Shown in pieces: positions 4,424-27,307 of a stretch of DNA of 64,000 bases. Source of the DNA: Rasiella rasia (GTDB taxonomy: Bacteria; Bacteroidota; Bacteroidia; Flavobacteriales; Flavobacteriaceae); NCBI RefSeq assembly GCF_011044175.1, contig NZ_CP049057.1:3115501-3179500 (forward strand), written 5' to 3'. The position numbers and the translations under genes are program-made. Position 1 is the first letter of the stretch, and every line of letters begins with the position of its first letter. The notes under the pieces are model-generated. The model saw only the letters and a program-made list of their open reading frames with translations, had not been told where the DNA came from and did not search any database.

Positions 4424-5428
4424 ATGTCAACATTTGTAAACTCAAAAAAAATACTTGTTACAGGAGCCGATGGCTTTATTGGCTCACATTTGGTAGAATA
4501 CCTTGTTGGGCAAGGACATCAGGTTAAGGCGTTCTGCTTCTATAATTCCTTTAACTCTTGGGGTTGGTTAGATAGCCTTCCAAAAGAAACCTTAGATAAC
4601 ATTGAAGTTTTCACAGGCGATATTAGAGACCCCAACGGGGTACGCACAGCTATGAAAGATGTATCGATAGTATATCACTTGGCTGCGTTAATTGCAATTC
4701 CTTTTAGCTACCACTCGCCAGATAGTTATATAGATACCAATGTAAAGGGTACATTAAATGTAGTACAGGCAGCCCGTGATTTTGAAATAGAACGCGTTTT
4801 AGTTACTTCTACCTCAGAAGTATATGGCACAGCGCAATATGTGCCTATAGACGAAAAGCACCCAAAACAACCACAATCACCCTATTCTGCATCAAAAATA
4901 GGCGCAGATTGCATTGCGGACTCGTTTTACCGAAGTTTCGACCTTCCTGTTACTATAGTACGTCCTTTTAATACCTTTGGTCCACGGCAGTCTGCACGCG
5001 CTTTTATTCCAACTATTATTACACAATTGCTTAACGGTTTTGATGAAATTAAATTAGGCGATATTACACCAACCCGTGATTTGCTATATGTAAAAGATAC
5101 AGTACGTGGTTTCGAAACCATCGCTAATACGCCTTCTTTAATTGGGCATGAGGTTAACATTGCTACCAATTCTGAAATTACTATTGGCGAAGTAGCAGAA
5201 CGTTTAATTAAACTAATTAATCCGAAGGCTAAAATTACCTTAGATGAAACCCGTCTTCGTCCAGAAAAAAGTGAAGTTTTTAGATTGTTTGGAGACAATA
5301 CCAAACTCATGAAACATACCAACTGGAAAACGCAGTACGCATTCAACGATGCCTTGCAGGAAACCATAGACTGGTTTGCAAACAAAGAAAATTTAAAGCA
5401 ATACAAAGCGGGTATTTACAATGTATAG
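4424..5428 (+). CDS. legB: NAD-dependent 4,6-dehydratase LegB (legionaminic acid pathway)
   Basis: First dedicated step of legionaminic-type sugar synthesis: 4,6-dehydration of a nucleotide-linked GlcNAc to the 4-keto-6-deoxy sugar. The protein has 334 residues, with GADGFIG at 14-20, a TSTSEVYG active-site segment at about 128-135, and YxxxK as Y154/K158. The distinctive FCFYNSFNSWGWLD segment (38-50) is characteristic of LegB rather than of PseB or GDP-mannose dehydratase. ATG lies 3 nt after the Wzt stop, and its 3' end overlaps the legC start by 8 nt. Whether the substrate is UDP- or GDP-GlcNAc is undecided, but the PtmE-like gene downstream favours a GDP route. Confidence 0.87.
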   Translation: MSTFVNSKKILVTGADGFIGSHLVEYLVGQGHQVKAFCFYNSFNSWGWLDSLPKETLDNIEVFTGDIRDPNGVRTAMKDVSIVYHLAALIAIPFSYHSPDSYIDTNVKGTLNVVQAARDFEIERVLVTSTSEVYGTAQYVPIDEKHPKQPQSPYSASKIGADCIADSFYRSFDLPVTIVRPFNTFGPRQSARAFIPTIITQLLNGFDEIKLGDITPTRDLLYVKDTVRGFETIANTPSLIGHEVNIATNSEITIGEVAERLIKLINPKAKITLDETRLRPEKSEVFRLFGDNTKLMKHTNWKTQYAFNDALQETIDWFANKENLKQYKAGIYNV

Positions 5429-6560
5429 CAACCTGGTCTCTTTTGTTCAAAATGAATTTGGTACAACAGACTTTATTCCGTTACATGAACCTCGGTTTGT
5501 AGGAAATGAAAAAAAGTATGTAGCAGATGCCATAGACTCTACCTTTGTGTCTTCTGTAGGCGCTTATGTAAACCGGTTTGAAGAGGATTTTGCGAAAAAC
5601 ACCCAACAATCGTATGCGGTGGCAACCGTTAACGGTACAGCTGCTCTGCACATTGCCATGCTTTTAGCTGGCGTAGAAAAAGACACCGAGGTATTAACGC
5701 AAGCGCTCACTTTTGTTGCTACGTGTAATGCAATTTCGTACCTGGGTGCCGTTCCGCATTTTGTAGATGTAGACAGAACTACTTTGGGGATGTGCCCCGT
5801 AAAACTGGCATCGCATCTAGAATCTGTAGCCGAAATGCGAAATGGTACTTGTTATAATAAAATTACCAACCGCAAGATATCGGCTTGTGTGCCTATGCAT
5901 ACCTTTGGCCATATAGGGGCAATAGAATCTCTGGTGCAGGTGTGTAATACCTATGGTATACCCTTGGTTGAAGATGCCGCAGAAGCCTTAGGTAGCTATA
6001 AAAATGGCAAGCATGCTGGCAGCTTTGGTGCTGTAGCCGCTTTCAGTTTTAACGGGAACAAAGTAATCACGGCAGGCGGAGGAGGTGCCATTACCACGAA
6101 TGATGAAACCTTGGCTAAAAGAGCAAAGCACCTTACTACAACGGCTAAAATTCCGCATAAATACAAATACGAACACGATGCCATAGGGTACAACTACCGT
6201 ATGCCAAATCTTAACGCGGCGCTTTTAGTGGCGCAATTAGAGCAATTACCATTGTTCTTGAAGAAAAAACGAGCTTTAGCAGAAAGATATGAGGCATTTT
6301 GTACCAAGGAAAGGTTACAGTTTATTGAAGAGCCAAAGAATACACAGTCTAATTACTGGCTTATGGCGTTATTGTTAGATAGCGAAAATCAGCGTGATGA
6401 ATTTTTAGAATACACTAATACACATGGTGTTATGACACGACCTATCTGGCAACTCATGAATCGGTTACCCATGTTTGCAGATTGTCCAAGTGCTTTACTG
6501 GAAGATTCTGAATTTCTTGAGGCTCGGGTGGTGAATATTCCGAGTAGTGTAATTTTGTAG
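5421..6560 (+). CDS. legC: LegC-family PLP-dependent sugar aminotransferase
   Basis: Transfers an amino group to C4 of the keto-sugar made by LegB. It has 379 residues of the DegT/DnrJ/EryC1 fold. The PLP lysine is K214 in FSFNGNKVITAGGGG, and the cofactor-stacking segment VEDAAEALGS is at 183-192. The start LVSFVQNEFG and LHEPRFVGNEKKYV are typical of LegC proteins. The ATG at 5421 overlaps the legB stop by 8 nt. Identification rests on both internal motifs and the LegB neighbour. The usual next genes, an N-acetyltransferase (LegH) and a hydrolysing 2-epimerase (LegG/NeuC), are not in the following positions. Confidence 0.88.
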   Translation: MYSNLVSFVQNEFGTTDFIPLHEPRFVGNEKKYVADAIDSTFVSSVGAYVNRFEEDFAKNTQQSYAVATVNGTAALHIAMLLAGVEKDTEVLTQALTFVATCNAISYLGAVPHFVDVDRTTLGMCPVKLASHLESVAEMRNGTCYNKITNRKISACVPMHTFGHIGAIESLVQVCNTYGIPLVEDAAEALGSYKNGKHAGSFGAVAAFSFNGNKVITAGGGGAITTNDETLAKRAKHLTTTAKIPHKYKYEHDAIGYNYRMPNLNAALLVAQLEQLPLFLKKKRALAERYEAFCTKERLQFIEEPKNTQSNYWLMALLLDSENQRDEFLEYTNTHGVMTRPIWQLMNRLPMFADCPSALLEDSEFLEARVVNIPSSVIL

Positions 6561-6589
6561 AAGGAAGTATGCTAACAATTGTATCTTTG
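6553..6589 (+). promoter_or_regulatory. Candidate promoter upstream of the GT2-like gene
   Basis: TTTTG at 6553-6557 and a perfect TAnnTTTG box, TATCTTTG at 6582-6589, are 24 nt apart, slightly long for a Bacteroidota promoter. The ATG at 6609 follows 19 nt after the box. The -33-like element sits in the last codons of legC. Confidence 0.42.
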
Positions 6590-6608
6590 TGTTAATTTAT
6601 AAACTACT

Positions 6609-7451
6609 ATGAATTCTTGTTGCTTTGCTAGTGTAATTTTTGAAGGAAATATACCGTTCTTTCCGGAGTTCTTAAGCTCTTTGCAGGCGCAAATCGATTC
6701 AGATTTTACCCTATTACTTTTTAACGATGGTGTTGAAAATTTAGAAGCACACGTATCTGAATACACCTTACCTTTTCGAATAATTACAGCTTCTGGAACT
6801 AGTGCCGAAATACGTCAACAAATGTTGACATACCTTGCCGCTTCAGAATTTGACTTTGCTGTGTTTGGTGACACAGACGATTATTTTGCGCTTAATAGAA
6901 TTGCTATTTCTAAGAAATTGCTGAAGGAGCATCCAATTATAGCAAATGATGTTTGGTTGGTAGATGAGGCCGGTAAACTATTACAACAAGGGTATTGGAG
7001 CATTCGTCCCGAAGTTAAAGAGGATATTTCATATGAAAGTTTACGCCATTACAACGTATTAGGACTAGGTAATACTGCTATTCAAACTTCCATCTTGCCA
7101 AAAAACTTAGCGCTACCAGCATCGTTAATAGCCGTAGATTGGTATGTGTTTTCATGTCTTTTGAAAAGCGGCTTAAAAGCACACTTTACGTCGAGTACTC
7201 ATATCTATTATAGACAGTATGAAGGCAATACTATTGGTTTAAAAAAGTTAACTTTGCAACGGTTTAAAAAAGAAGCAACAGTAAAATTGCAGCATTATAA
7301 AGCTTTGGCTAAGCTAGATGAAGAAATCACACCCTTGGCGCTGCGTTTTGAAGAAATGGTACAAACGTTAGATACTTTTTCTGAAACTCAGTTAACAAAG
7401 TTTAGTAAACAACAAGAACATCCCTTTTGGTGGGAACAAGTACAACCGTAA
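6609..7451 (+). CDS. GT2-like glycosyltransferase in the nonulosonate block
   Basis: A 280-residue protein resembling the GT-A fold of family 2. The N-terminus reads as strand-loop-strand (ASVIFEGN, then LLLFNDGVENLE), with a DxD-like FGDTDDYFA at about 89-97 where metal and nucleotide-sugar would bind. The C-terminal third is charged and helical without membrane segments. ATG at 6609 is the only sensible start. It sits between legC and legI, where NeuC/LegG or LegH would usually be found, but it shows no NeuC motif. It may transfer the nonulosonic acid or another sugar; the acceptor cannot be deduced. The assignment rests on the fold-like pattern, not a strong family signature. Confidence 0.6.
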   Translation: MNSCCFASVIFEGNIPFFPEFLSSLQAQIDSDFTLLLFNDGVENLEAHVSEYTLPFRIITASGTSAEIRQQMLTYLAASEFDFAVFGDTDDYFALNRIAISKKLLKEHPIIANDVWLVDEAGKLLQQGYWSIRPEVKEDISYESLRHYNVLGLGNTAIQTSILPKNLALPASLIAVDWYVFSCLLKSGLKAHFTSSTHIYYRQYEGNTIGLKKLTLQRFKKEATVKLQHYKALAKLDEEITPLALRFEEMVQTLDTFSETQLTKFSKQQEHPFWWEQVQP

Positions 7452-7541
7452 ACGTATGCAGTGCCTATAAGTACGGAATAAATTTAATGAAGATGTAAGC
7501 ATTAGGCGTACCATCTTCTAATTTTTCAATAGTCGAAACAG

Positions 7542-8597
7542 ATGAAAATTCAAATTTCAAAGAATAAAGAAATATTCAATTTTAGTCAGCCCTACATCAT
7601 AGCAGAGATTGGTGCCAATCACAACGGCGATATGGATCTTGCGAAAAAGATGATAGATAGCGCAGTAGATTGTGGTTGCGATGCTGTAAAATTTCAATCA
7701 TGGACCCCACAGTCGTTAATTGCTAAAGAGGAGTATGATCGCAATCAGGTATATGACGATTCACCAAAAAAGCACTTTGGGTCTTTAGAGGAAATGGTAA
7801 CCAAGTATTACTTGCGTCCAGAGCAACATTTTGAGCTAAAAGAATATTGTGAGGGCAAAGGCGTAGATTTTTGTTCATCTCCTTTTTCGACTAAAGAAGT
7901 AGACTTGCTTATGGAAATTGGGGTGCCATTTCTTAAAATAGCTTCTATGGATATAAATAACATTCCATTTTTGAAGTATGCGGCACGTACTATGAAACCT
8001 ATAGTAGTTTCTACTGGAATGGCAACAATTGCCGAGATAGACAGAGCAGTGCAGACTATTCGCGGAGAAGGCAATGAGCAAATTTGTCTCTTACATTGTA
8101 TTTCAATCTACCCACCAAAAGACAAAGACATTCACCTACGCAACATAGCCATGTTACAGGATACTTTTAATTTGCCTGTTGGTTTTTCAGATCACTCTTT
8201 TGGTACCGCAGTGCCGTTAGCGTCTGTTGCATTAGGCGCTTGTATCATTGAAAAACATTTTACACTAGACAAAGATTTACCAGGTTGGGATCATGAGATT
8301 TCTGCAGATCCGGTTGAAATGAAAGCCATTTGCTATGATTCTAAAAAGATTCAGGCGGCTATGGGTAATGTGCATAGAACCGTTTCGGACGAAGAGGAGG
8401 CTAAAAAAGATAAGTTTAGACGTAGTATTGTTGCGGCAACCGACTTAAAAAAGGGAACGGTACTTTCCGAAGAACATTTCGACTATAAAAGACCAGGAAC
8501 GGGGATTCCTCCAAACGAATATTTATATGTTGCTGGTAGAAAACTTAACTGCGATATTGCTGCAGACACCTTATTAACTTGGGATCATTTTGAATAA
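7542..8597 (+). CDS. legI: Nonulosonic acid synthase (NeuB/LegI family)
   Basis: Condenses phosphoenolpyruvate with a 6-carbon N-acyl sugar to form a nine-carbon sialic-type acid. It has 351 residues. The TIM barrel carries AEIGANHNGD (catalytic-site E22), KFQSW (K50), KIAS (132-135), VSTGMAT, LLHC (metal-type H185), GFSDHS (H218) and EKHFTLD (237-243). A C-terminal SAF/antifreeze-like domain (about 290-350) forms the lid of the partner active site in the dimer. All expected motifs are intact, so this is the likely functional synthase of the locus. LegB and LegC upstream argue for legionaminic-type rather than neuraminic acid. The 90-nt gap upstream contains no strong promoter match. Confidence 0.92.
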   Translation: MKIQISKNKEIFNFSQPYIIAEIGANHNGDMDLAKKMIDSAVDCGCDAVKFQSWTPQSLIAKEEYDRNQVYDDSPKKHFGSLEEMVTKYYLRPEQHFELKEYCEGKGVDFCSSPFSTKEVDLLMEIGVPFLKIASMDINNIPFLKYAARTMKPIVVSTGMATIAEIDRAVQTIRGEGNEQICLLHCISIYPPKDKDIHLRNIAMLQDTFNLPVGFSDHSFGTAVPLASVALGACIIEKHFTLDKDLPGWDHEISADPVEMKAICYDSKKIQAAMGNVHRTVSDEEEAKKDKFRRSIVAATDLKKGTVLSEEHFDYKRPGTGIPPNEYLYVAGRKLNCDIAADTLLTWDHFE

Positions 8598-8601
8598 ACC
8601 C

Positions 8602-9405
8602 ATGAAAACAGTTGCTTGCATTATAGCCCGAACCGTCTCTACAAGGTTGCCTATAAAGGTGCTAAGAGATCTTACCCCAGGAACTACCATGGTAGATTTT
8701 TTGGTACAACGGCTTAAAACAGTTCAACAAATAGATGAAATTTATATCTGTACCTCTACACAACCAGTAGATGATGTTTTGGAAGATGTAGCGATACGAA
8801 ATAAGGTAAAATTGTACCGAGGTTCTGAAGACAAGGTTATTGAACGCATGATAGATGTGGGAACTTCAGAAAATGCAGACATTGTACTGCGCATAACAGC
8901 AGATAATCCGTTTACCACAACAGAGTACATAGATGATCAGATTCAGTTTTTAATAGATAATGAACTAGATTACTCGCGAATTGTTGAGGTACCTATTGGA
9001 GCATCGCCAGAGGTGATTCGGTTCTCGGCACTTAAAGATTGTTATTCAAAAATGGATCCTTCGGTAAGCGAGTACTTAATGTTGTTCTTATTTGAACCAA
9101 AAACTTACAAATGTGGAGTACTTCAGGTTTTTGAAGAAGACTATTCAAACTACACAGTAACTGTAGATACACCAATAGATTTGGTGCGTACTAAGAAAGT
9201 GTTAGAGATTTTTGGCAGTCATGATATTACACTAAAGGATATTATTGCTATTTACAAAGATGCATCTCACGATTTGCCGGTTACTCAATTTGCCATGGCA
9301 GGAGATGTAAAGTTACCCTACGGAAAAATGGTCTCTGTAGCCGAATTTTCTGAAGATATGAACAGACGTAAGCAAAATTCTATCATAAAGAAAGTGTATG
9401 AATAA
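8602..9405 (+). CDS. SpsF-like cytidylyltransferase (probable CMP-nonulosonate activation)
   Basis: Nucleotidyltransferase of the SpsF/CMP-sugar synthetase group, 267 residues from the chosen ATG. The N-terminal CIIARTVSTRLPIKVL matches the nucleotide-binding ARxxSTRLPxKVL loop. RITADNPFTT (around residues 95-105) supplies the metal-binding D, and VTVDTPIDLV the later conserved strand. A TTG at 8590 overlapping the legI stop is possible, but family members begin at the MKTVA strand, so ATG 8602 (4 nt after the legI stop) is preferred. No canonical NeuA/LegF is visible, so this protein is the best candidate for activating the nonulosonic acid. That role is inferred from context. Confidence 0.72.
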   Translation: MKTVACIIARTVSTRLPIKVLRDLTPGTTMVDFLVQRLKTVQQIDEIYICTSTQPVDDVLEDVAIRNKVKLYRGSEDKVIERMIDVGTSENADIVLRITADNPFTTTEYIDDQIQFLIDNELDYSRIVEVPIGASPEVIRFSALKDCYSKMDPSVSEYLMLFLFEPKTYKCGVLQVFEEDYSNYTVTVDTPIDLVRTKKVLEIFGSHDITLKDIIAIYKDASHDLPVTQFAMAGDVKLPYGKMVSVAEFSEDMNRRKQNSIIKKVYE

Positions 9406-10393
9406 ATCGTATGTATACGTAGAAACAGCTTTTCACCACGAAGGTGATATAGACTATATTAAAAACCTTATAAATGCTGCCAGTGACATTGGTGTGAACG
9501 GTGTTAAATTTCAGGTGCTTACAGAGGCTTCGGATTTTATATCTACAAAACATTCTGCATTTTCGACCTTAGAAGCATATACCTTTAATGTTGCACAGTG
9601 GAGTGAGCTATTTCAGTATACAACAGCCGCGGGACTCGACATTATTATGATGCCCTTAGATTTAGGCGCATTTAAATTATTAGAAAAGCACACCGTAAAG
9701 TACTTAGATATTCATTCGGTTTCGTTTTACGACAGCAAGTTGTTAGCCGCTGTAAAAGCGTCTCAAATTCCTATAATTTTAGGAGTTGGTGGAAGAACCT
9801 TAGAAGAAATAGACGATAAAATTTCGTATTTTGAAGGAAAACTAGAAGTGCTTATGGTAGGATTTCAGGCGTTTCCTAGTAAATTGGAAGACGTAAAAAT
9901 TGGTAAGATTGCCCATTTGGTTCAGAAATATCCGGCGCAAGCTATTGGATATGCAGATCATTCTGCCCATGATGACGATTTCAATGTAACTAGTAACGAG
10001 TATGCACGCTTGTTAGGGGCAACTTTTTTTGAAAAACACATGACTCTAGAGCAAGGGAAAGAACGGGTAGATTATAATTCTGCGGTAGATGCGGCAACCC
10101 TAAAGAATATGATAGAGCGTATTCGATTTATTGAGGCTCATGTTTTAAGTACTGCTGAAAGTTCCTTTCAATTTCACGATACCGAAGTTGTATATAGAAA
10201 TAGACAACTAGTGTGTGTGGCTACTGCAAATTTGGCTGAAGGTACCGTTCTTAAAGAAAATGATATGGCCTTAAAAATGATGGATGCCCATGAGAATAAC
10301 CAATATAGAGTGGAAGCACTACTAGGCAAAAAATTGGTGAAGGCAGTAGAAAAAGACATGCCTATTCAATCACAAAATGTATACAATGAGTAG
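9398..10393 (+). CDS. Divergent NeuB-family protein (second synthase-like paralogue)
   Basis: A 331-residue NeuB-like barrel plus C-terminal SAF-like region (about 265-325). Retained family landmarks are the first-strand Glu (VETAFHHEGD, E9), VKFQV (36-40), YADHS (185-189) and EKHMTLE (212-218). Several others are altered relative to the intact synthase upstream: LLHC is LMVG (His replaced by V154), STG is GVGG, KIAS is DIHS, and SSPFS is MPLDL. It could be a synthase of changed specificity, a non-catalytic partner, or a related aldolase-type enzyme. ATG 9398 overlaps the previous stop by 8 nt (ATGAATAA). Family membership is firm, function is not. Confidence 0.7.
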   Translation: MNKSYVYVETAFHHEGDIDYIKNLINAASDIGVNGVKFQVLTEASDFISTKHSAFSTLEAYTFNVAQWSELFQYTTAAGLDIIMMPLDLGAFKLLEKHTVKYLDIHSVSFYDSKLLAAVKASQIPIILGVGGRTLEEIDDKISYFEGKLEVLMVGFQAFPSKLEDVKIGKIAHLVQKYPAQAIGYADHSAHDDDFNVTSNEYARLLGATFFEKHMTLEQGKERVDYNSAVDAATLKNMIERIRFIEAHVLSTAESSFQFHDTEVVYRNRQLVCVATANLAEGTVLKENDMALKMMDAHENNQYRVEALLGKKLVKAVEKDMPIQSQNVYNE

Positions 10394-11408
10394 TTATAAG
10401 ATTTATCGAGATCAATTAGAAACGTTTGAAGACGTTATCCAGCATTTGGATAGCTATGGAGTTGGGTTTTTAGCGGTTGTAAATAGAGATGAAACCTTGT
10501 ATGGTATTGTTACCGATGGCGATATTCGTAAAGCATTGCTTCAGCAAAAAAGGGATATAGATACCATTATCAATAAAGCCCCCATTACCTTACATTACAG
10601 CACACCAAGAAGCCAGATTGTTTCTTATTTGCAGTCTAAGCGTAGGTTGCACATTCCATTAATTGATGATGCTAAAATATTAAAACAGGTGTTTCTTTTA
10701 AATGACCTGAATTTTGAGTACAAGCCCAATAAAGTTGTAATTATGGCGGGCGGACTAGGTTCAAGATTGGGAGATTTAACAAAAGACACGCCTAAACCAA
10801 TGTTAGAGATTAAGGGGAAACCCATTCTTGAGTATATTGTAGATTCGTTTAAGAATCAGGGATTCAACAAATTTATCTTCTGTGTAAATTATAAGAAAGA
10901 AGTAATAGAATCTTATTTTGGCGATGGTAGTCGCTTTAATGTAAGTGTAGAGTACATTGTTGAAGAAAAGCGTTTGGGTACAGCGGGTGCGTTGAGCTTA
11001 ATAGCGGACGACTGTTTTGAAGATCCATTTTTTGTAGTAAACGGAGATGTTATTAGTAATATAGAATACCAACATGTGTTAGATTTCTATAATTCTAACA
11101 AGGCCGAGGCGGTTATGTGTACCAAAGAATTGAGTCATACAAATCCCTATGCAGAAGTCTATTTTGATGACCAAAAAAACCTTATTAGCTTAAAGGAGAA
11201 ACCTACCAAGATATTTCATATTAATTTAGGCGTATATTTATTACACCCAAAAATGACCACGTTGTTACCCACCAATGAGTTTTATGATATGCCTAATTTA
11301 TTTCTGAAAGCCAAGAGCCAAGAACATATGGTAAAGGTGTTTAATGTAAATGAAGATTGGGTAGATATTGGAAAACCTGTAGATTATCACAAAATAAGTG
11401 ATGATTAG
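10386..11408 (+). CDS. ptmE: CBS-domain sugar-1-phosphate nucleotidyltransferase (PtmE-like)
   Basis: Two N-terminal CBS motifs (about residues 5-110, with GIVTDGDIRKAL and HIPLIDD) precede a nucleotidyltransferase domain with AGGLGSRL (121-128), TPKPMLEI and VVNGDVI. This architecture matches PtmE, the glucosamine-1-phosphate guanylyltransferase that starts GDP-linked legionaminic synthesis in Campylobacter (family knowledge). Nucleotide preference is not readable here. An ATG at 10377 is in frame, but 10386 gives the same 8-nt ATG/stop overlap (ATGAGTAG) as the neighbouring junctions and is preferred. The CBS pair suggests adenosine-nucleotide or CMP-sugar control of activity. Confidence 0.78.
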   Translation: MSSYKIYRDQLETFEDVIQHLDSYGVGFLAVVNRDETLYGIVTDGDIRKALLQQKRDIDTIINKAPITLHYSTPRSQIVSYLQSKRRLHIPLIDDAKILKQVFLLNDLNFEYKPNKVVIMAGGLGSRLGDLTKDTPKPMLEIKGKPILEYIVDSFKNQGFNKFIFCVNYKKEVIESYFGDGSRFNVSVEYIVEEKRLGTAGALSLIADDCFEDPFFVVNGDVISNIEYQHVLDFYNSNKAEAVMCTKELSHTNPYAEVYFDDQKNLISLKEKPTKIFHINLGVYLLHPKMTTLLPTNEFYDMPNLFLKAKSQEHMVKVFNVNEDWVDIGKPVDYHKISDD

Positions 11409-12872: not shown

Positions 12873-13649
12873 ATGTTCAAAAGACTGCATAATGCTTTTT
12901 TCTCTTATCTAAAGAATGGCACAAGACGTCTCAATACAATTGGGAAAGGAGTTGCAGTTGCAAAGAATGTTTCCGTCTCAGGTTCTTACCTCGCAACGGG
13001 TGTTACAGTTGGAGCCAACTCTAAGCTTTTTGATGCTATTCTAAGAAAAGGAACTGAGGTTGGTGCCAACAATACCATAAAAAAATCTGAACTTACGGGG
13101 AAGGTTACTACACAGGAGCATTGTAAATTAAATGAATGTCATCTGTATGGCAAGATTTCTATAGGTAGGTACACTTCATTATGGGGTCCAAATCTGGATA
13201 TTAAAACAGGGAAAGAAAAAGTTACTATTGGTAGTTTCTGTTCTATTGCGCGCAATGTATATATGCAAACCTTTAATCACAATACGTCGCGATTAACATC
13301 ATACTATATTGGCAAGAATGTCTTTGGAGAGAAGTGGGAAAATGAGCGTACCACCAAGGGCGATATTACTATAAAAAATGACGTATGGATAGGAGCTCAT
13401 GCTATTGTTTTAGGAGGTGTTACTATTGGCAATGGTGCGGTGATAGCTGCAAATACCGTAGTAACTAAAGATGTACCACCTTTTGCAATCTACGCCGGGG
13501 TGCCTGGAAAAGTTATTGGATATCGTTTTGAGCCCGAGGTAATTGCTAAAATTGAAAAATTAGCTTGGTGGGATTGGTCTATCGAAAAGATAAAAGAAAA
13601 CAAAGAGCTGTTTAAAGACAATGTCAAGAATGCAGATTTTTTCAGTTAA
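12873..13649 (+). CDS. Hexapeptide-repeat O-/N-acyltransferase (CatB/XAT-like)
   Basis: Left-handed beta-helix acetyltransferase, 258 residues. Irregular hexapeptide turns fill residues 25-200, including VTVGANSKLF, VTIGSFCSIARNV and the C-terminal IGAHAIVLGGVTIGNGAVI and TKDVPPFAIYAGVPGKVIG. The FNHNTSR loop places the expected catalytic histidine, and a helical tail ends the protein. It probably acetylates a sugar of this glycan or a nonulosonate precursor, but it does not resemble LegH/PglD closely enough to name. ATG at 12873 lies 17 nt after the GT-B stop, and the next gene follows immediately. Confidence 0.85.
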   Translation: MFKRLHNAFFSYLKNGTRRLNTIGKGVAVAKNVSVSGSYLATGVTVGANSKLFDAILRKGTEVGANNTIKKSELTGKVTTQEHCKLNECHLYGKISIGRYTSLWGPNLDIKTGKEKVTIGSFCSIARNVYMQTFNHNTSRLTSYYIGKNVFGEKWENERTTKGDITIKNDVWIGAHAIVLGGVTIGNGAVIAANTVVTKDVPPFAIYAGVPGKVIGYRFEPEVIAKIEKLAWWDWSIEKIKENKELFKDNVKNADFFS

Positions 13650-21305: not shown

Positions 21306-22481
21306 ATGCGTATAGGTATAGTACTTTCTCAGACACCTGGCTATTCAGAAACCTTTTTCACTTCAAAAATTAAGGGGTTACAGGCTGCTGGGTTTTCGGT
21401 AGTACTTTATACACAAAATAAAGCAGCAGATTTTGCGCTATGCCAAGTGAAGACAGCACCTAAAGTGCGTAGATTCTTGCCAATTCAGTTATTGGTAATG
21501 GCTGGTACGTTTATATCGTTAATTCCAAAATTGGCTGTTGTGCTACGTTTTATTAAGGCTGAAAAGCGGCAGGGATCTAGTATGGGAGCTATTTATAAGA
21601 AAATATTTTTAAACGCCCACTTATTGAAGGCAAAGTTAGATTGGCTTCATTTTGGTTTTGCCACCATTGCATTAGGAAGCGAACAGGTTGCCGAAGCCAT
21701 TGGAGCAAAAATGGCGGTTAGTTTTAGAGGGTTTGATATAAATGTGTATCCGTTAAAGCATCCAGGCTGTTACAATCTACTTTGGACCAAAGTAAATAGG
21801 GTACATAGTATCTCAAAATATTTACATACAAAGGCAATTTCTTTTGGTCTGTCGTCAAAAACGCCTTTTGAAATTATTACCCCAGCAGTAGATCTAGAGG
21901 CATTACCCAAATCGGTAGCGCTTACAAATAAAACAATGCAAATCCTAACCATAGCAAGACTCACTTGGATTAAAGGCATAGAAACTGCTATCACTGCCAT
22001 GAGACTATTGAAGGAAAGAGGTGTTCGGTTTCAGTATCATATTGTGGGTGATGGAAGTACAAAAGATACAGAGCGTTACACATTTCAAGTGTATGAACAT
22101 GGGTTAACTGACTGTGTTTTTTTTCACGGAAAGTTGACACATCAAGAAACGTTACAGCATTTAAACAAGGCAGATATCTATGTGCAACCAAGCCTAAATG
22201 AAGGGTTTTGTAACGCAGTATTAGAGGCTCAGGCTATGGGGAAATTGACAATCGCCAGTCATGTGGGTGGGTTACCAGAGAATATTGTAGACCAAAAAAC
22301 GGGCTGGCTGTTTCCGAGTGAAAATGCAGAAGCATTAGCAACCAAAATACAAGAGGTGATAGCATTTCCAAAAACTGAAATCGCTAACATATCAGCCGCC
22401 GCAAGAAAGCGTATACAAGATGATTTTAGCGTTAAACAACAGCAAGAAAAATTTGTGTCATTTTATAAAAACAATAGGTAG
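21306..22481 (+). CDS. Family 4 glycosyltransferase
   Basis: GT-B enzyme, 391 residues. RIGIVLSQTPGYSETFF starts the acceptor domain, and AVSFRGFDINVYP at about 137-149 is typical of exopolysaccharide GT4 enzymes of the WcaL/AmsK kind. The donor domain has TIARLTWIKGIETAI, YHIVGDGSTKD and NEGFCNAVLEAQAMGKLTIASH (near 298). Its stop overlaps the GTG of the MBOAT gene by one base. WcaL-like enzymes often transfer galactose, but that is only a hint. Confidence 0.87.
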   Translation: MRIGIVLSQTPGYSETFFTSKIKGLQAAGFSVVLYTQNKAADFALCQVKTAPKVRRFLPIQLLVMAGTFISLIPKLAVVLRFIKAEKRQGSSMGAIYKKIFLNAHLLKAKLDWLHFGFATIALGSEQVAEAIGAKMAVSFRGFDINVYPLKHPGCYNLLWTKVNRVHSISKYLHTKAISFGLSSKTPFEIITPAVDLEALPKSVALTNKTMQILTIARLTWIKGIETAITAMRLLKERGVRFQYHIVGDGSTKDTERYTFQVYEHGLTDCVFFHGKLTHQETLQHLNKADIYVQPSLNEGFCNAVLEAQAMGKLTIASHVGGLPENIVDQKTGWLFPSENAEALATKIQEVIAFPKTEIANISAAARKRIQDDFSVKQQQEKFVSFYKNNR

Positions 22482-23908
22482 TGCTATTTAACTCTGTAGA
22501 CTTTGCGCTTTTTCTCCCTATAGTTTTTATGCTATATTGGTTTGTATGTAGAAAGAAAATTAGGGCACAGAACTGGCTGTTGTTATTAAGCAGTTATTTC
22601 TTTTATGGGTTTTGGGATTGGCGCTTTCTTTTTTTAATCTTATTTAGTACGCTTGTAGACTTTAGCGTTGCAAGGCGCTTGTTAAAGGAAGCGAACGCGC
22701 GCAAGCGTAAATTATTAGTGTCAGTTAGTATATTAGTGAATCTAGGTCTGCTAGGGTTCTTTAAATATTACAATTTCTTTTTAGACACCTTTGTCGATTC
22801 TTTTTCGTTCTTTGGAACATCAATTTCGATAGATAGGCTCGACATTATTTTACCCGTTGGAATTTCTTTTTACACGTTTCAGACGTTAAGTTACACTATA
22901 GATGTGTATAGGAAGAAAATTACATCCCCCAGTAGCTTTCTTAACTTTGCAGCTTATGTGAGTTTCTTTCCGCAGTTAGTAGCAGGACCCATAGAAAGAG
23001 CGACAAAATTGTTGCCTCAATTCTCAAAAGAACGAATATTTAGAGCGTCTTATGCTCTTTCGGGTCTCGATTTAATGATATGGGGGTTATTCAAAAAGGT
23101 TGTGATTGCAGATAACTGTGCGTTTTTTGTAAATCAGATTTTTGACAATCCGGGTGCATATTCTAGTGCAGAACTCGCCACGGGTGCCGTACTCTTTGGG
23201 TTTCAAATTTATGGTGACTTTTCAGGATATAGTGATATAGCAATTGGTACTGCGCGCTTGTTTGGATTCGATTTAATGCTCAATTTTAAGTTTCCTTATT
23301 TTTCTAGAGATATTGCAGAATTCTGGAGACGCTGGCATATTTCATTGTCTACGTGGTTTCGTGATTACTTATATATTCCCTTAGGTGGTTCTAGAGGTAC
23401 CTTAGGCTTTCAGATAAGAAATGTCTTTATTGTATTTGTTGTAAGTGGTTTTTGGCATGGTGCTAGTTGGAATTTTATTATTTGGGGTGCCATTCACGCT
23501 ATATTGTTTTTACCTCTTTTGATAGCCAAAAAGAATAGGAGCAATCTAAATTTTAACCGATTTAGTATTAAATCGGTTTTCAATATCGTAGGGACTTTTA
23601 TGTTAGTGAATATTGCGTGGATATTTTTTAGGGCAGATACCCTTCAAATAGCATACAACTATATTAAGACGATGCTAACAGATGGTTCTTTATCAATGGG
23701 TGTTTTTACTAGTTCGTCAAAAAGTCTATTGTTTTTTGCTATCATATTAATTTCGGTACTTACGTTGCTGTTGTTTGAATATTTCAGCATTAAAAAGAAA
23801 CGAGATTTAGTGCTATTTAACAGAGTAAGTGCAATCGTAATAGTACTAATGATTGTGTTTTTTGGAGCCTTTAAAAATGCTTCAGAATTTATTTATTTTC
23901 AGTTTTAG
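22481..23908 (+). CDS. MBOAT-family O-acyltransferase (AlgI-like), copy 1
   Basis: Polytopic membrane protein of 475 residues with about ten hydrophobic segments. It carries the MBOAT signatures: LPVGISFYTFQTLSYTIDVY (124-143), FPQLVAGPIERA (163-174), YGDFSGYSDIAIG (244-256), FWRRWHISLSTWFRD (281-295) and the invariant histidine in SGFWHGASW (H326). AlgI-type proteins pass an acyl group across the inner membrane for O-acetylation of periplasmic glycans, together with an SGNH-type partner, encoded here immediately downstream. The GTG start overlaps the previous stop by one base. It is closely related to the copy at 24975-26408. Confidence 0.92.
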   Translation: MLFNSVDFALFLPIVFMLYWFVCRKKIRAQNWLLLLSSYFFYGFWDWRFLFLILFSTLVDFSVARRLLKEANARKRKLLVSVSILVNLGLLGFFKYYNFFLDTFVDSFSFFGTSISIDRLDIILPVGISFYTFQTLSYTIDVYRKKITSPSSFLNFAAYVSFFPQLVAGPIERATKLLPQFSKERIFRASYALSGLDLMIWGLFKKVVIADNCAFFVNQIFDNPGAYSSAELATGAVLFGFQIYGDFSGYSDIAIGTARLFGFDLMLNFKFPYFSRDIAEFWRRWHISLSTWFRDYLYIPLGGSRGTLGFQIRNVFIVFVVSGFWHGASWNFIIWGAIHAILFLPLLIAKKNRSNLNFNRFSIKSVFNIVGTFMLVNIAWIFFRADTLQIAYNYIKTMLTDGSLSMGVFTSSSKSLLFFAIILISVLTLLLFEYFSIKKKRDLVLFNRVSAIVIVLMIVFFGAFKNASEFIYFQF

Positions 23909-23910
23909 GT

Positions 23911-24810
23911 ATGAAAAAGTTTTTAAAAAGAATCCTACTTATTTTCCTTATAGTTTTTCTATTAGGAAACCTCCTTGGATACCTTAGCCTAAAAATTCAT
24001 TCGGAAGGGAATTTCTACAAACCCTCGTTCGCAGTGAATGCTCATAAACCAGCAAACTACGATTATGTAGTGGTAGGTGCGAGTACTGGTCTTACTACAA
24101 TAAACACTGGGCTTATAGATAGTCTAGCTCATACGAAGGGATTAAATCTCTCTATGGACGACACCAATATTTCCAGTCATTATTTAATGCTGCAACACTT
24201 TTTAGCCCAAGGAAATACTGTATCCAAATGTATTCTGGCACCAGCAGTGGGTAGTTATAATGATGCAAACAAAGAAAGTAGTACCAACGATTATCGTTTT
24301 GCTATGTTTGCTGAAAGCTCCTATGTTACTACTTATTTTAATACGATAGAAGAAAAAAGCTTGAATTCTAGACTAATTGCCTCGGCAAGTTATATGCCTA
24401 TGGCAGTGGAGTCTTACTATAATGCCGAATTATTTTTTACTTCATTGTATGTGCTAACAGATTTTAAAAAGCGTAATAGATTTGACCAAAACGGAAACTA
24501 TACTTATCCGCCAAAACGTAACGTACAGCGTTTTCAGAAAAAGCCATTTGAATTAAAATTTAGTAATCCGTATCTCAAAAAGCTAGAGGCCTTGTGTTTA
24601 GAGCATAACATAGAATTACTTTATTTTGTCTCTCCTATTGCTAATAAGCATGTGACAATGGAACCTCATAGTCATCTTCTTGATTATAGCAATTTCATTA
24701 AAGACCCAATTTATTTTTATGATGCGATTCATGTAAATTCTGAAGGGAGAAAGCTGGTGTCTCAACAATTAGCAGATACGCTTTTTTCAAATAACAGTGT
24801 AAAGAACTAG
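23911..24810 (+). CDS. Membrane-anchored SGNH-like partner of MBOAT, copy 1
   Basis: A 299-residue protein with one N-terminal membrane anchor (residues 7-27), the rest periplasmic. DYVVVGASTGL (51-61) provides the SGNH block I serine (S58) and DAIHVNSEG (271-279) the catalytic D-x-x-H pair. It resembles the acyl-transferring partners found beside AlgI-like MBOATs (AlgX/AlgJ and PatB1-like logic), although overall similarity to named families is low. ATG lies 2 nt after the MBOAT stop. The 164 nt following are non-coding and separate this cassette from copy 2. Confidence 0.7.
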   Translation: MKKFLKRILLIFLIVFLLGNLLGYLSLKIHSEGNFYKPSFAVNAHKPANYDYVVVGASTGLTTINTGLIDSLAHTKGLNLSMDDTNISSHYLMLQHFLAQGNTVSKCILAPAVGSYNDANKESSTNDYRFAMFAESSYVTTYFNTIEEKSLNSRLIASASYMPMAVESYYNAELFFTSLYVLTDFKKRNRFDQNGNYTYPPKRNVQRFQKKPFELKFSNPYLKKLEALCLEHNIELLYFVSPIANKHVTMEPHSHLLDYSNFIKDPIYFYDAIHVNSEGRKLVSQQLADTLFSNNSVKN

Positions 24811-24974: not shown

Positions 24975-26408
24975 ATGCTTTTTAATTCATTCGATTTTGC
25001 GATTTTCCTTCCTATTGTATTCATACTCTATTGGTTTGTTTGCAAAAGAAGTATAAAGGCGCAGAATGTATTACTTGTAATTGCCAGCTATGTTTTTTAT
25101 GGTTGGTGGGATTGGCGCTTTTTGTTTCTAATTTTATTTAGCACACTTGTAGATTATTCGATTGGGTTAGCGTTGGCAAAAGAGTCTAGACAGCGCAAAC
25201 GGAAAATGCTACTTGCCATAAGTGTATTCGTAAATATTGGTTTACTAGGTTTCTTTAAATACTACAATTTCTTTCTAGATAATTTTGTCCAAGCGTTCTC
25301 CTTTTTTGGTACCAACTTTGAAGTTTCTCGATTAGATATTATTCTTCCTGTAGGTATTTCGTTCTATACGTTTCAGACATTAAGCTACACCATAGATGTC
25401 TATAGAAATAAGCTAGAACCCACTAAAGATCTTGTTGCTTTTACTGCATTTGTGTCATTCTTTCCACAGTTAGTGGCTGGCCCTATTGAACGGGCAACCA
25501 ATTTGCTTCCTCAGTTTTTTAAGAAACGTAAATTTAATAGTGACCAAGCAATCATTGGCTTTAAGCAGATTATTTGGGGGTTGTTCAAAAAAATAGTTAT
25601 TGCAGATAATTGTGCGCAGTATGTAAACGAAATTTTTGGTAATTATGACGAAGTTGGTTCCCTTACATTAATCTTGGGTGCCGTATATTTTGCCTTTCAG
25701 ATTTATGGCGATTTTTCTGGCTATAGTGATATTGCCATTGGTACAGCACGCTTGTTTAATTTTAGGTTGATGACCAATTTTAGATACCCTTATTTTTCTC
25801 GTGATATAGCTGAGTTTTGGCGTAGGTGGCATATTTCACTTTCTACTTGGTTTCGCGATTATGTGTACATCCCTTTAGGTGGCAGTAGGGGAAGTCAACT
25901 CTTTCAAGTTAGAAATGTGTTTATCATTTTTTTAGTGAGTGGTTTTTGGCATGGCGCGAATTGGACCTTCATAGTTTGGGGTGCTATTAACGCCTTATTT
26001 TTTATTCCATTATTATTAACTAAAAGAAACAGAAATAATACCGATACGGTTGCTGAGGGCAGGTTTTTGCCGAATTTAAAAGAGTTTCTGACCATGTTAG
26101 GTACCTTTGGTATTGTAACCTTAGGTTGGATTTATTTTAGAGCAGAAAGCGTTACAGTGGCTAATGACTATATTGCGCATATTCTAGCGTTTGATTTTAA
26201 GATGGGTATGCTAAACATAGAACGATATCCATTTGAGCTTCTTCCCTTATTGGCAATTTTGTTGTATTATGAGTGGTTTTCTAGAGATTTAGAGTTTCCA
26301 CTATATTCACCAACATATTCGTTGCCAAGAGTTCTTGTGGTGGTAGTGTTAATTGCGACATTTGGTAGTTTTTCAACAATTCAAGATTTTATATATTTTC
26401 AATTCTGA
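24975..26408 (+). CDS. MBOAT-family O-acyltransferase (AlgI-like), copy 2
   Basis: A 477-residue polytopic protein sharing long identical stretches with copy 1, such as LGFFKYYNFFLD, RLDIILPVGISFYTFQTL, FFPQLVAGPIERAT and FWRRWHISLSTWFRDY. It has the invariant His in SGFWHGANW. The first loop, the segment after ERAT and the C-terminal 90 residues differ most, which is where substrate or partner contacts could change. ATG start, with a 5' gap of 164 nt. The stop overlaps the next ATG (TGATG). The arrangement repeats the MBOAT-then-SGNH order of copy 1, indicating cassette duplication followed by divergence. Confidence 0.92.
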   Translation: MLFNSFDFAIFLPIVFILYWFVCKRSIKAQNVLLVIASYVFYGWWDWRFLFLILFSTLVDYSIGLALAKESRQRKRKMLLAISVFVNIGLLGFFKYYNFFLDNFVQAFSFFGTNFEVSRLDIILPVGISFYTFQTLSYTIDVYRNKLEPTKDLVAFTAFVSFFPQLVAGPIERATNLLPQFFKKRKFNSDQAIIGFKQIIWGLFKKIVIADNCAQYVNEIFGNYDEVGSLTLILGAVYFAFQIYGDFSGYSDIAIGTARLFNFRLMTNFRYPYFSRDIAEFWRRWHISLSTWFRDYVYIPLGGSRGSQLFQVRNVFIIFLVSGFWHGANWTFIVWGAINALFFIPLLLTKRNRNNTDTVAEGRFLPNLKEFLTMLGTFGIVTLGWIYFRAESVTVANDYIAHILAFDFKMGMLNIERYPFELLPLLAILLYYEWFSRDLEFPLYSPTYSLPRVLVVVVLIATFGSFSTIQDFIYFQF

Positions 26409-27307
26409 TGAAAAAATTTGGGGCCTATATACTAATTCTAGTAACTGCTACGGTAGTTATATTCTATTTATTAGATGCAGGGTATACCTATGTATATAAT
26501 AATGGAGCCTACCGAAGCAAAGCTATGTGGGTTAGAGACATGAAAGACTTACCAAAATTAGATTATATAGTGTTGGGCTCATCTAGGGCAAATTACTTTA
26601 TAAATCCTACGGTGATTGAAGCGCAAACTGGAAAGATGGGATTAAACTTAGGTGTAAATGCATCTACAGGTATTGAAATATTCTTGATGCTAGACGAATT
26701 TTTGAAGATTCGAGATGTTGATACCGTTTTTATACAAGTAGATTCTAAGTACATACAAATGAATCCGGATTTAGTAGGAGAACAGGCTTGGATTCCCTTT
26801 ATATATGAACCGGTAAAGTATGAACTCTTTAAAGATCACGGTGATGAATATATATGGTGTAGGTACATGCCTTTTTATAGGTATCAGAGATCTGAGGCAA
26901 GACTAGGGTACAGAAATGTTATTCCTAGTTTACTAGGAAAGGGCGTTTCTTATAAAGAAAACTCAGGTTATTTTCCAAAGAGTGGCGTGATAAAAAAAGA
27001 ACGACCCTATAGAGCAGATAAACCAATCACCCAAGAGAATCCTTATTTTAAAATGATGATAGAATTGTGTGAAGAAAAGAACGTTCCGGTAATCTTTTTT
27101 ACTGCTCCTATTTACGGTTTTAAAGGCGATTTAAAACCGCTACAAAAATACCTTCCCAACTATTATGATTTAAAGGAAAGTATTACAGATAGAAATTTGT
27201 TTAGTGATCAAACACATCTAAATACACAAGGGGCTACGGTATTTAGTCGAAAATTTGCCACCTTGTTTTTTAATAATGCTAAAGAAGAAAGTTCTAGTAA
27301 TCCATAG
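26408..27307 (+). CDS. Membrane-anchored SGNH-like partner of MBOAT, copy 2
   Basis: A 299-residue protein, the same length as copy 1, with an N-terminal anchor (4-24) and a periplasmic body. YIVLGSSRANYFINP (53-67) gives the block I serine, and DQTHLNTQGATVFS (267-280) the D-x-x-H pair. Outside these motifs, similarity to copy 1 is weak, so the partners diverged far more than the MBOAT proteins. Co-translation with MBOAT copy 2 is implied by the one-base overlap. The likely role is transfer of an acyl group to a specific sugar hydroxyl in the periplasm; the acyl group and position are unknown. Confidence 0.7.
   Translation: MKKFGAYILILVTATVVIFYLLDAGYTYVYNNGAYRSKAMWVRDMKDLPKLDYIVLGSSRANYFINPTVIEAQTGKMGLNLGVNASTGIEIFLMLDEFLKIRDVDTVFIQVDSKYIQMNPDLVGEQAWIPFIYEPVKYELFKDHGDEYIWCRYMPFYRYQRSEARLGYRNVIPSLLGKGVSYKENSGYFPKSGVIKKERPYRADKPITQENPYFKMMIELCEEKNVPVIFFTAPIYGFKGDLKPLQKYLPNYYDLKESITDRNLFSDQTHLNTQGATVFSRKFATLFFNNAKEESSSNP

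Follow-up and report, generated by a model that had tools for sequence, protein, structure and literature searches.

The stretch of DNA analysed here (hereafter the window; 64,000 nucleotides) covers positions 3,115,501-3,179,500 of the single-contig genome of Rasiella rasia (3,388,965 bases, 99.64% complete). At 4424-11408 it carries a contiguous block of seven open reading frames (ORFs), all on the + strand, encoding LegB, LegC, a protein of glycosyltransferase family 2 (GT2) fold referred to as GT2_A, the nonulosonate synthase NeuB1, an SpsF-type cytidylyltransferase, a second NeuB-fold protein (NeuB2) and a PtmE-like protein, which we take to supply guanosine diphosphate (GDP)-N-acetylglucosamine (Table 1). 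A preliminary description of the window had recognised this gene set, without LegG, LegH or LegF, and its gene coordinates are retained; GT2_A is the one addition. The block is intact and partly conserved across several families of Bacteroidota, and does not derive from a canonical set by decay or rearrangement. A complete leg set just upstream, which the preliminary description had named as a finding that would refute it, was not found: in the 17.5 kb upstream, judged by inspection of ORFs of at least 120 amino acids (aa), there are genes of wza/wzc type and for a glycosyl-1-phosphate transferase, the others being unrelated. The block is a variant of the known legionaminic pathway, and new enzymology may reside in NeuB2 and GT2_A. 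That it constitutes a working variant of the GDP-linked pathway, assembled from two interchangeable modules, is a reading to which we give roughly even odds.

Profile searches of the whole genome extended the preliminary observation that neither a hydrolysing 2-epimerase nor a classical cytidine monophosphate (CMP)-legionaminate synthase is encoded between positions 1 and 37191 of the window. No hydrolysing 2-epimerase was found genome-wide, the sole PF02350 protein being a non-hydrolysing WecB (TIGR00236: 471.8 bits, cut-off 210.15; NeuC model: 91.2 bits, cut-off 235.9), in contrast to the NeuC of locus L036, which scores 484.4 on the NeuC model. The genome yielded no match to PseG and no NeuA/LegF, and NeuA is also absent from the window locus. 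PF02348 was detected at three places in the genome (the block's SpsF, a protein in which NeuB2 is fused to SpsF, and a KdsB-domain protein) and PF03102 at four (NeuB1, NeuB2, the fusion and a further NeuB). The LegB of the block is the only one in the genome above the TIGR04180 cut-off, and the sole LegH-type gene above the TIGR03570 cut-off is the PglD gene at 309.7 kb, within a PglC-PglD-PglE-like run of bacillosamine type. The LegH step, for which the block has no gene, may plausibly be provided in trans by PglD. The earlier idea that the missing steps are encoded elsewhere is plausible for LegH and not supported for LegG, given that neither a hydrolysing 2-epimerase nor PseG was found. A broader form of this idea, with provision in trans of every missing step, ordinary legionaminic acid as the product and NeuB2 as a redundant relic, appears improbable. 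The presence of PglD at 309.7 kb and of WecB at 2.24 Mb would fit it, as would the two PseG proteins of a Pontibacter genome with the same block. However, the WecB of this genome scores as non-hydrolysing and adjoins WecC, PseG was found neither here nor in G395, the nearest relative, which has a single PF02350 protein, likewise on the WecB side, and the NeuB2 residues are conserved rather than decaying.

Comparisons were made on 38 stretches that encode a protein of NeuB1 or NeuB2 type, a non-random set comprising 28 NeuB1 genomes of the order, three NeuB2 contigs, five loci from two scans of the phylum and two second-locus stretches (L003 and L122); L002, L101, L120, L121 and L123, without NeuB, were excluded from the counts. 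At least 28 of 395 genomes of the order matched NeuB1 at 1e-60. NeuB2 was rare, with at least five of 395 genomes of the order matching at 1e-30. The phylum scans identified at least six of 395 genomes with NeuB2 (including that of the window and G049; four loci taken) and at least three of 395 with GT2_A (one locus taken). The genome scans scored the best five or six candidates per genome, so all these tallies are lower bounds. The annotation profiles were built partly from the same loci, with score limits that we set, and it is therefore the empty cells of the comparison that carry weight, not the filled ones.

Two exclusion patterns emerged from this set. The 28 PtmE-bearing loci divide into nine with GT2_A and 19 with a NeuC-type PF02350 protein, with no locus having both and none having neither. 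NeuA (20 of 38 loci) and NeuB2 (14 of 38) never occurred together, and four loci had neither; SpsF was present in all 14 NeuB2 loci and in five of the others. Mixed loci exist in both combinations: L078 and L119 have GT2_A with NeuA, and L036, L115, L116 and L117 have NeuC with NeuB2 and SpsF. The two swaps, of GT2_A and a particular NeuB1 clade for NeuC/LegG and of SpsF plus NeuB2 for NeuA, are therefore independent. A GT2_A/NeuB2 locus is also present in Flavobacterium piscinae (L038), and in G089 (L035) one contig carries another SpsF-NeuB2 pair, then genes for a PseG-like protein and a NeuB and, directly 3' of these, a full GT2_A cassette.

The NeuB1 proteins of the nine GT2_A loci formed a single clade in a tree of 41 rows (support 100/99). 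Their phosphoenolpyruvate (PEP)-site residues are intact: the NeuB1 of the block has the NeuB and SAF domains, and all nine members keep the metal-binding His pair, Lys53, Lys129, Ser132, Ser154, Ser213 and Arg314. GT2_A lies directly 5' of NeuB1 in 9/9 loci, with an overlap of at most 32 bases or a gap of at most 90 bases (longest-ORF starts). Of the 19 canonical loci, 18 have NeuC directly 3' of NeuB1, at most 153 bases away. A PF02350 search of seven GT2_A genomes revealed none with a NeuC-side protein. The PF02350 proteins of the window's own genome, G033, G049, G395 and G396 all fell on the WecB side of a split with 100/100 support, those of G033 and G049 on long branches of unsure placement. 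Four of these five genomes had no PseG match and the fifth, G396, had one at 21.9 bits only. G089 (84% complete) and G397 (Pontibacter) had no PF02350 protein above the cut-off. The preliminary description had also considered that the SpsF-like enzyme and the second NeuB-like protein might perform the later steps. A role of NeuB2 in place of LegG is not supported, given its occurrence beside an intact NeuC in L036, L115, L116 and L117 and within PseG-type sets in L035 and L118; GT2_A is the better positional candidate for this step.

The SpsF of the block has a CTP_transf_3 domain and keeps the N-terminal motif ARTVSTRLPIK as well as RITADNP. The mutual exclusion by locus of NeuA and NeuB2, the latter always with SpsF, supports SpsF as the activating enzyme, and there is a precedent in Bacillus subtilis: excerpts of PMC7439481 propose SpsF as the activating enzyme of the pathway, since without spsF legionaminic acid is still formed but does not arrive at the spore surface (complementation of the mutant failed). 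The same source describes a PseG-like protein, SpsG, as serving legionaminic synthesis. In the available part of PMC12053666, EpaA (CTP_transf_3 plus aldo-keto reductase) together with EpaB converts pseudaminic acid (Pse) to its 8-epimer (8ePse), which offers a precedent for a CTP_transf_3 enzyme paired with nonulosonate epimerisation, and an SpsF-aldo-keto reductase fusion of a Vibrio cluster is mentioned as a possible replacement of NeuA in the part of PMC7371886 consulted. From the exclusion pattern and precedent, it is highly likely that SpsF acts here as the CMP-nonulosonate synthetase instead of NeuA/LegF.

The structural model of NeuB2 has the NeuB fold (predicted local distance difference test score, pLDDT, 91.7), with Z scores of 31.4 to 6ncs and 30.5 to 1xuu. 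Residues were numbered as in Neisseria meningitidis NeuB, and 13 NeuB2 sequences were compared with 40 ordinary NeuB1-type sequences (one of 41 was too long and was excluded). Positions 53, 154 and 213 presumably have active-site roles. Those surrounding PEP in NeuB are 110, 129, 131, 132, 182 and 184, according to the accessible text of PMC7371886. The ordinary NeuBs keep Lys53, Lys129, Ser132, Ser154, Ser213, His215, His236 and Asp247 in 40/40, and have Pro, Ala, Ser or Gly at position 131 and Ser, Thr or Leu at position 184. All 13 NeuB2 sequences retain Glu25, Lys53, Asp214, His215, Glu234, His236 and Asp247. Thr/Ser110, Ser154 and Cys182 are replaced in 13/13, and Lys129 and Ser213 in 12/13 each, and a new set, His131, Gly182 and Gln184, is conserved in 13/13. 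NeuB2 shares its fold and metal site with the NeuB, SpsE and PseI synthases (1xuu, 1vli, 8h2c) and differs from them in the residues lining PEP. On these residues, NeuB2 very likely no longer uses PEP and keeps the metal site and a conserved pocket. It could instead be a second synthase for another nonulosonate with unusual PEP use, given the NeuB fold (Z 30.5 to 1xuu) and the retention of the metal site, Lys53 and mostly Ser132. We regard this as quite improbable, since at each of Thr/Ser110, Lys129, Ser154 and Ser213 at least 12 of the 13 NeuB2 sequences, and none of the 40 ordinary ones, carry another residue, and the window block has no second precursor gene set for NeuB2.

NeuB2 accompanies SpsF, as a 5' or 3' neighbour or fused to it, and occurs with several kinds of synthase; this suggests that it acts close to the step at which the nonulosonic acid is free or CMP-linked. 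The constant association, with fusion in two loci (L003 and L122), and the replaced PEP residues would also suit a partner without catalysis of its own, serving to stabilise or regulate SpsF. This appears unlikely: His215, His236, Lys53, Glu25, His131, Gly182 and Gln184 are invariant in 13/13 sequences, though identity to the window protein falls to 24%, and SpsF-type proteins occur without NeuB2 in 5/38 loci. A DUF386/YhcH gene was present in five of the 14 NeuB2 loci, as against none of the 24 others, and genome-wide in 6/6 NeuB2 genomes, as against 0/2 GT2_A-only genomes. E. coli YhcH opens the ring of N-acetylneuraminic acid for its aldolase (PMC8141875, excerpt). With only 5/14 loci, and with the YhcH gene of this genome an orphan, we give little weight to YhcH as a general partner of NeuB2.

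On the basis of the enzyme families, PtmE, LegB and LegC, together with a LegH activity probably contributed by the distant PglD, would generate GDP-2,4-diamino-2,4,6-trideoxyglucose. From its position, with which the exclusion of NeuC agrees, we put GT2_A forward, tentatively and with some doubt, as a stand-in for LegG; together with the NeuB1 clade to which it is coupled, it may release the free sugar for NeuB1. NeuB1, with its motifs intact, would condense the freed sugar with PEP, and SpsF would form the CMP-sugar. NeuB2 is probably a derived NeuB-fold metalloenzyme, not a second synthase, acting with SpsF on the nine-carbon acid. Its likeliest reaction would be an aldol-type C3-C4 rearrangement, amounting to 4-epimerisation of the open-chain form, a speculative assignment that we derive from the fold: with the carboxylate and metal sites kept and the phosphate site not, the C3-C4 bond of the open-chain acid could be cleaved and re-formed. 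This is the weakest link of the scheme. 4-Epilegionaminic acid is a known sugar, as stated in the consulted part of PMC7371886. The pathway would then yield an altered legionaminic-type sugar destined for the surface glycan whose ATP-binding cassette (ABC) exporter genes adjoin the block. In its strongest form, the proposal would comprise two new activities, a NeuB2 family that epimerises C4 without PEP before SpsF acts and a GT2_A that replaces LegG by freeing, and perhaps epimerising, the sugar bound to GDP; we consider it improbable that both hold.

Several observations weigh against this scheme. The position of the epimerisation is a guess from fold chemistry. NeuB2 retains Ser132 in 10/13 and Arg314 in 5/13 sequences, and that of L118 retains Lys129; the fused forms are a divergent subgroup with Thr at 53, Lys at 129 and Glu at 154. 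The YhcH gene of this genome is an orphan adjoining pyrG, which says little. In L038, one of the GT2_A loci, no LegC was found over the 21 kb covered, and the exclusion of GT2_A and NeuC tracks one NeuB1 clade and may therefore represent a single event. PseG-type proteins are encoded on the contig of the block in G089 (L035; 95.5 bits, below the cut-off of 153.55) and in G397 (L039; 191.1 bits, above it), and, considering also the role of SpsG in B. subtilis, these two genomes provide no evidence for a new LegG. GT2_A, for its part, retains the ordinary GT2 motifs, and its structural neighbours are transferases. D40, D88, D90, D91 and D177 are invariant in 9/9 sequences, and we take DxD and Asp177 to be the GT2 motif and the catalytic-base Asp, respectively, so that from its sequence GT2_A looks like a functioning GT2 enzyme. 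Its model has a GT-A fold (pLDDT 86.9), closest to AvpGT (9jma; Z 20.1, root mean square deviation 3.6, 250 aligned residues) and also near K4 chondroitin polymerase (2z86; Z 19.6). The GT2_A sequence alone gave no match in a PDB sequence search, and its profile retrieved only glycosyltransferases and the teichoic-acid polymerase TagF. Inversion of C2 is not known to us from any GT2 enzyme. GT2_A also diverges faster than NeuB1 (29-44% versus 59-77% identity to the window protein, nearest relative excluded), as expected of a transferase whose acceptors differ; the variation of PtmE is almost as large (30-65%).

GT2_A might be a dedicated glycosyltransferase, possibly transferring the GDP-diamino sugar itself, with the aldose for NeuB1 coming from elsewhere. 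The intact motifs, the transferase neighbours and the fast divergence speak for this possibility, as does B. subtilis SpsA, a GT2 protein of the sps operon that affects the spore surface and is not needed for transfer of legionaminic acid, according to excerpts of PMC7439481. However, GT2_A lies within a biosynthetic run beside NeuB1 in 9/9 loci whose neighbours otherwise differ, with either NeuA or SpsF, and the best match of the GT2_A profile in the 19 canonical loci was a single one of 26 bits, which argues against a general transferase of such sugars. We give a dedicated transferase somewhat less than an even chance, which is a little more than we give the stand-in role; it would be compatible with the parts of the proposed scheme that concern SpsF and NeuB2.

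Many bacteria have nonulosonic acids on their surfaces, and gene content often serves to predict which kind. In the CMP-legionaminic pathway of Campylobacter, PtmE performs the first step. This pathway continues with LegB, LegC, LegH, LegG, LegI and LegF (PMC6137143 and PMC7439481, both in part). LegB, LegC, the PtmE-like protein and a NeuB/LegI-type synthase are shared with the block described here, which contains no LegH and has GT2_A, SpsF and NeuB2 instead, with LegG and LegF not found genome-wide. The sps genes of B. subtilis (SpsM-C-D-G-E-F) resemble the block in SpsF-type activation, LegC-/NeuB-type enzymes and an accompanying GT2 protein (SpsA). They differ in the presence of SpsG (PseG-like) and SpsD, both absent from the block, and in uridine diphosphate-linked precursors; the excerpts of PMC7439481 mention only one NeuB-type gene for sps. 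EpaA/EpaB of Acinetobacter prophages also couple a CTP_transf_3 domain to nonulosonic-acid-modifying enzymes, although the partners there, as far as the excerpt of PMC12053666 goes, are an aldo-keto reductase and a short-chain dehydrogenase/reductase (SDR) acting at C8, rather than a NeuB-fold protein. The nonulosonate cluster of Vibrio B9-25K2 likewise has an SpsF-like domain proposed to replace NeuA, but this cluster is of Pse type and the domain is part of a fusion with an aldo-keto reductase (PMC7371886, in part). The titles and abstract openings of the literature retrieved contained no account of a NeuB2-SpsF pair or of a legionaminic locus in which GT2_A takes the place of LegG. A cluster that has NeuB2 or GT2_A would be taken for an incomplete one or for one with two synthases. 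Few enzymes are known to alter nonulosonic acids, and NeuB2 is a concrete candidate for this step in some bacteria; both swap patterns make the questions about NeuB2 and GT2_A testable with a few purified proteins.

Table 1. The block, its 3' neighbours and other stretches mentioned in the text. Positions are those of the window unless a locus is named.
Feature	Position	Strand	Matches or content
LegB, nicotinamide adenine dinucleotide-dependent 4,6-dehydratase	4424-5428	+	TIGR04180, 494 bits (cut-off 475)
LegC, pyridoxal phosphate aminotransferase	5421-6560	+	TIGR04181, 543 bits (cut-off 420)
GT2_A, GT2-fold protein, 280 aa	6609-7451	+	no Pfam or NCBIfam match
NeuB1, nonulosonate synthase	7542-8597	+	PF03102 and SAF; TIGR03569, 364.5 bits (under cut-off of 399.65)
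SpsF-type cytidylyltransferase, predicted CMP-nonulosonate synthetase	8590-9405	+	PF02348, 79 bits (above cut-off)
NeuB2, NeuB-fold protein with altered PEP site, SpsF partner	9398-10393	+	PF03102, 112 bits, and SAF
PtmE-like protein	10377-11408	+	CBS (PF00571) and NTP_transferase (PF00483)
U485, candidate transferase of no listed family, 485 aa	11398-12855	+	no Pfam, NCBIfam or PDB match
Left-handed beta-helix acetyltransferase	12873-13649	+	PF00132
Two tandem pairs, apparent MBOAT O-acyltransferase and SGNH-type partner	22481-24810 and 24975-27307		ORF inspection
Protein with repeated head-like motifs, 1102 aa	43045-46353		C-terminal part resembles S74 chaperone domain (ORF inspection)
Second nonulosonate-type locus, same genome (about 2.2445-2.2546 Mb)	L003:9535-19585		WecB, WecC, NeuB2-SpsF fusion, PhyH-like protein, NeuB
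NeuB2-SpsF fusion, 554 aa	L003:12719-14383		
NeuB of second locus	L003:18551-19585		PF03102
PglC-PglD-PglE-like run, same genome (about 309-311 kb)	L004:887-3226		bacillosamine type
KdsB-domain fusion protein, same genome (about 600 kb), 609 aa	L012:319-2148		TIGR00466, 186.5 bits (cut-off 155.2)
Second SpsF-NeuB2 pair, then PseG-like protein and NeuB (G089)	L035:1041-4858		
GT2_A/NeuB2 locus of Flavobacterium piscinae	L038:5240-12013		
Gene row of Marine virus AG-345-L05	L133:1358-4816		SDR-like, SpsF-like, LegC-like, ordinary NeuB

The PtmE gene is followed by those of U485 and of a left-handed beta-helix acetyltransferase and then by many glycosyltransferase-like genes. U485 was above the score limit that we set in six of the 38 loci, with homologues in L033, L038, L078, L081 and L085. 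The motifs QHG, HPR and THYSGT in its sequence point to a transferase of GT-B-like type; its profile had no match among PDB sequences. The acetyltransferase is unlikely to stand in for LegH, as its homologues in L033 and L038 (51% and 50% identity) occur alongside NeuD-type genes. On the 5' side of the block, ORF inspection and best profile matches identified wza/wzc-type genes, a glycosyl-1-phosphate transferase, TviB-/TviC-like genes and the ABC exporter pair. Further along the window lie two tandem pairs of an apparent MBOAT O-acyltransferase with an SGNH-type partner and a large protein with repeated head-like motifs (Table 1).

Elsewhere in the genome, the second nonulosonate-type locus, L003, carries the NeuB2-SpsF fusion between WecB and WecC genes and those of a PhyH-like protein (identified by ORF inspection) and another NeuB. 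No LegB or LegC gene was found within this stretch, which is largely syntenic with L122 from Flavobacteriaceae UBA3611. The KdsB-domain protein is fused to an iron-alcohol-dehydrogenase-like part, a combination reminiscent of the KdsB/KdnB route to 8-amino-3-deoxy-D-manno-octulosonate (8-amino-Kdo).

Among mobile elements, the one phage match to NeuB2 proved to be an ordinary NeuB by profile score (192 versus 110 bits), and was rejected. NeuB2-type matches on plasmids amounted to 49 records, all below 60% identity, with ten listed at 25-26%. The genome of Marine virus AG-345-L05, a marine member of the Kyanoviridae, has SDR-like (ORF inspection), SpsF-like, LegC-like and ordinary NeuB genes in a row.

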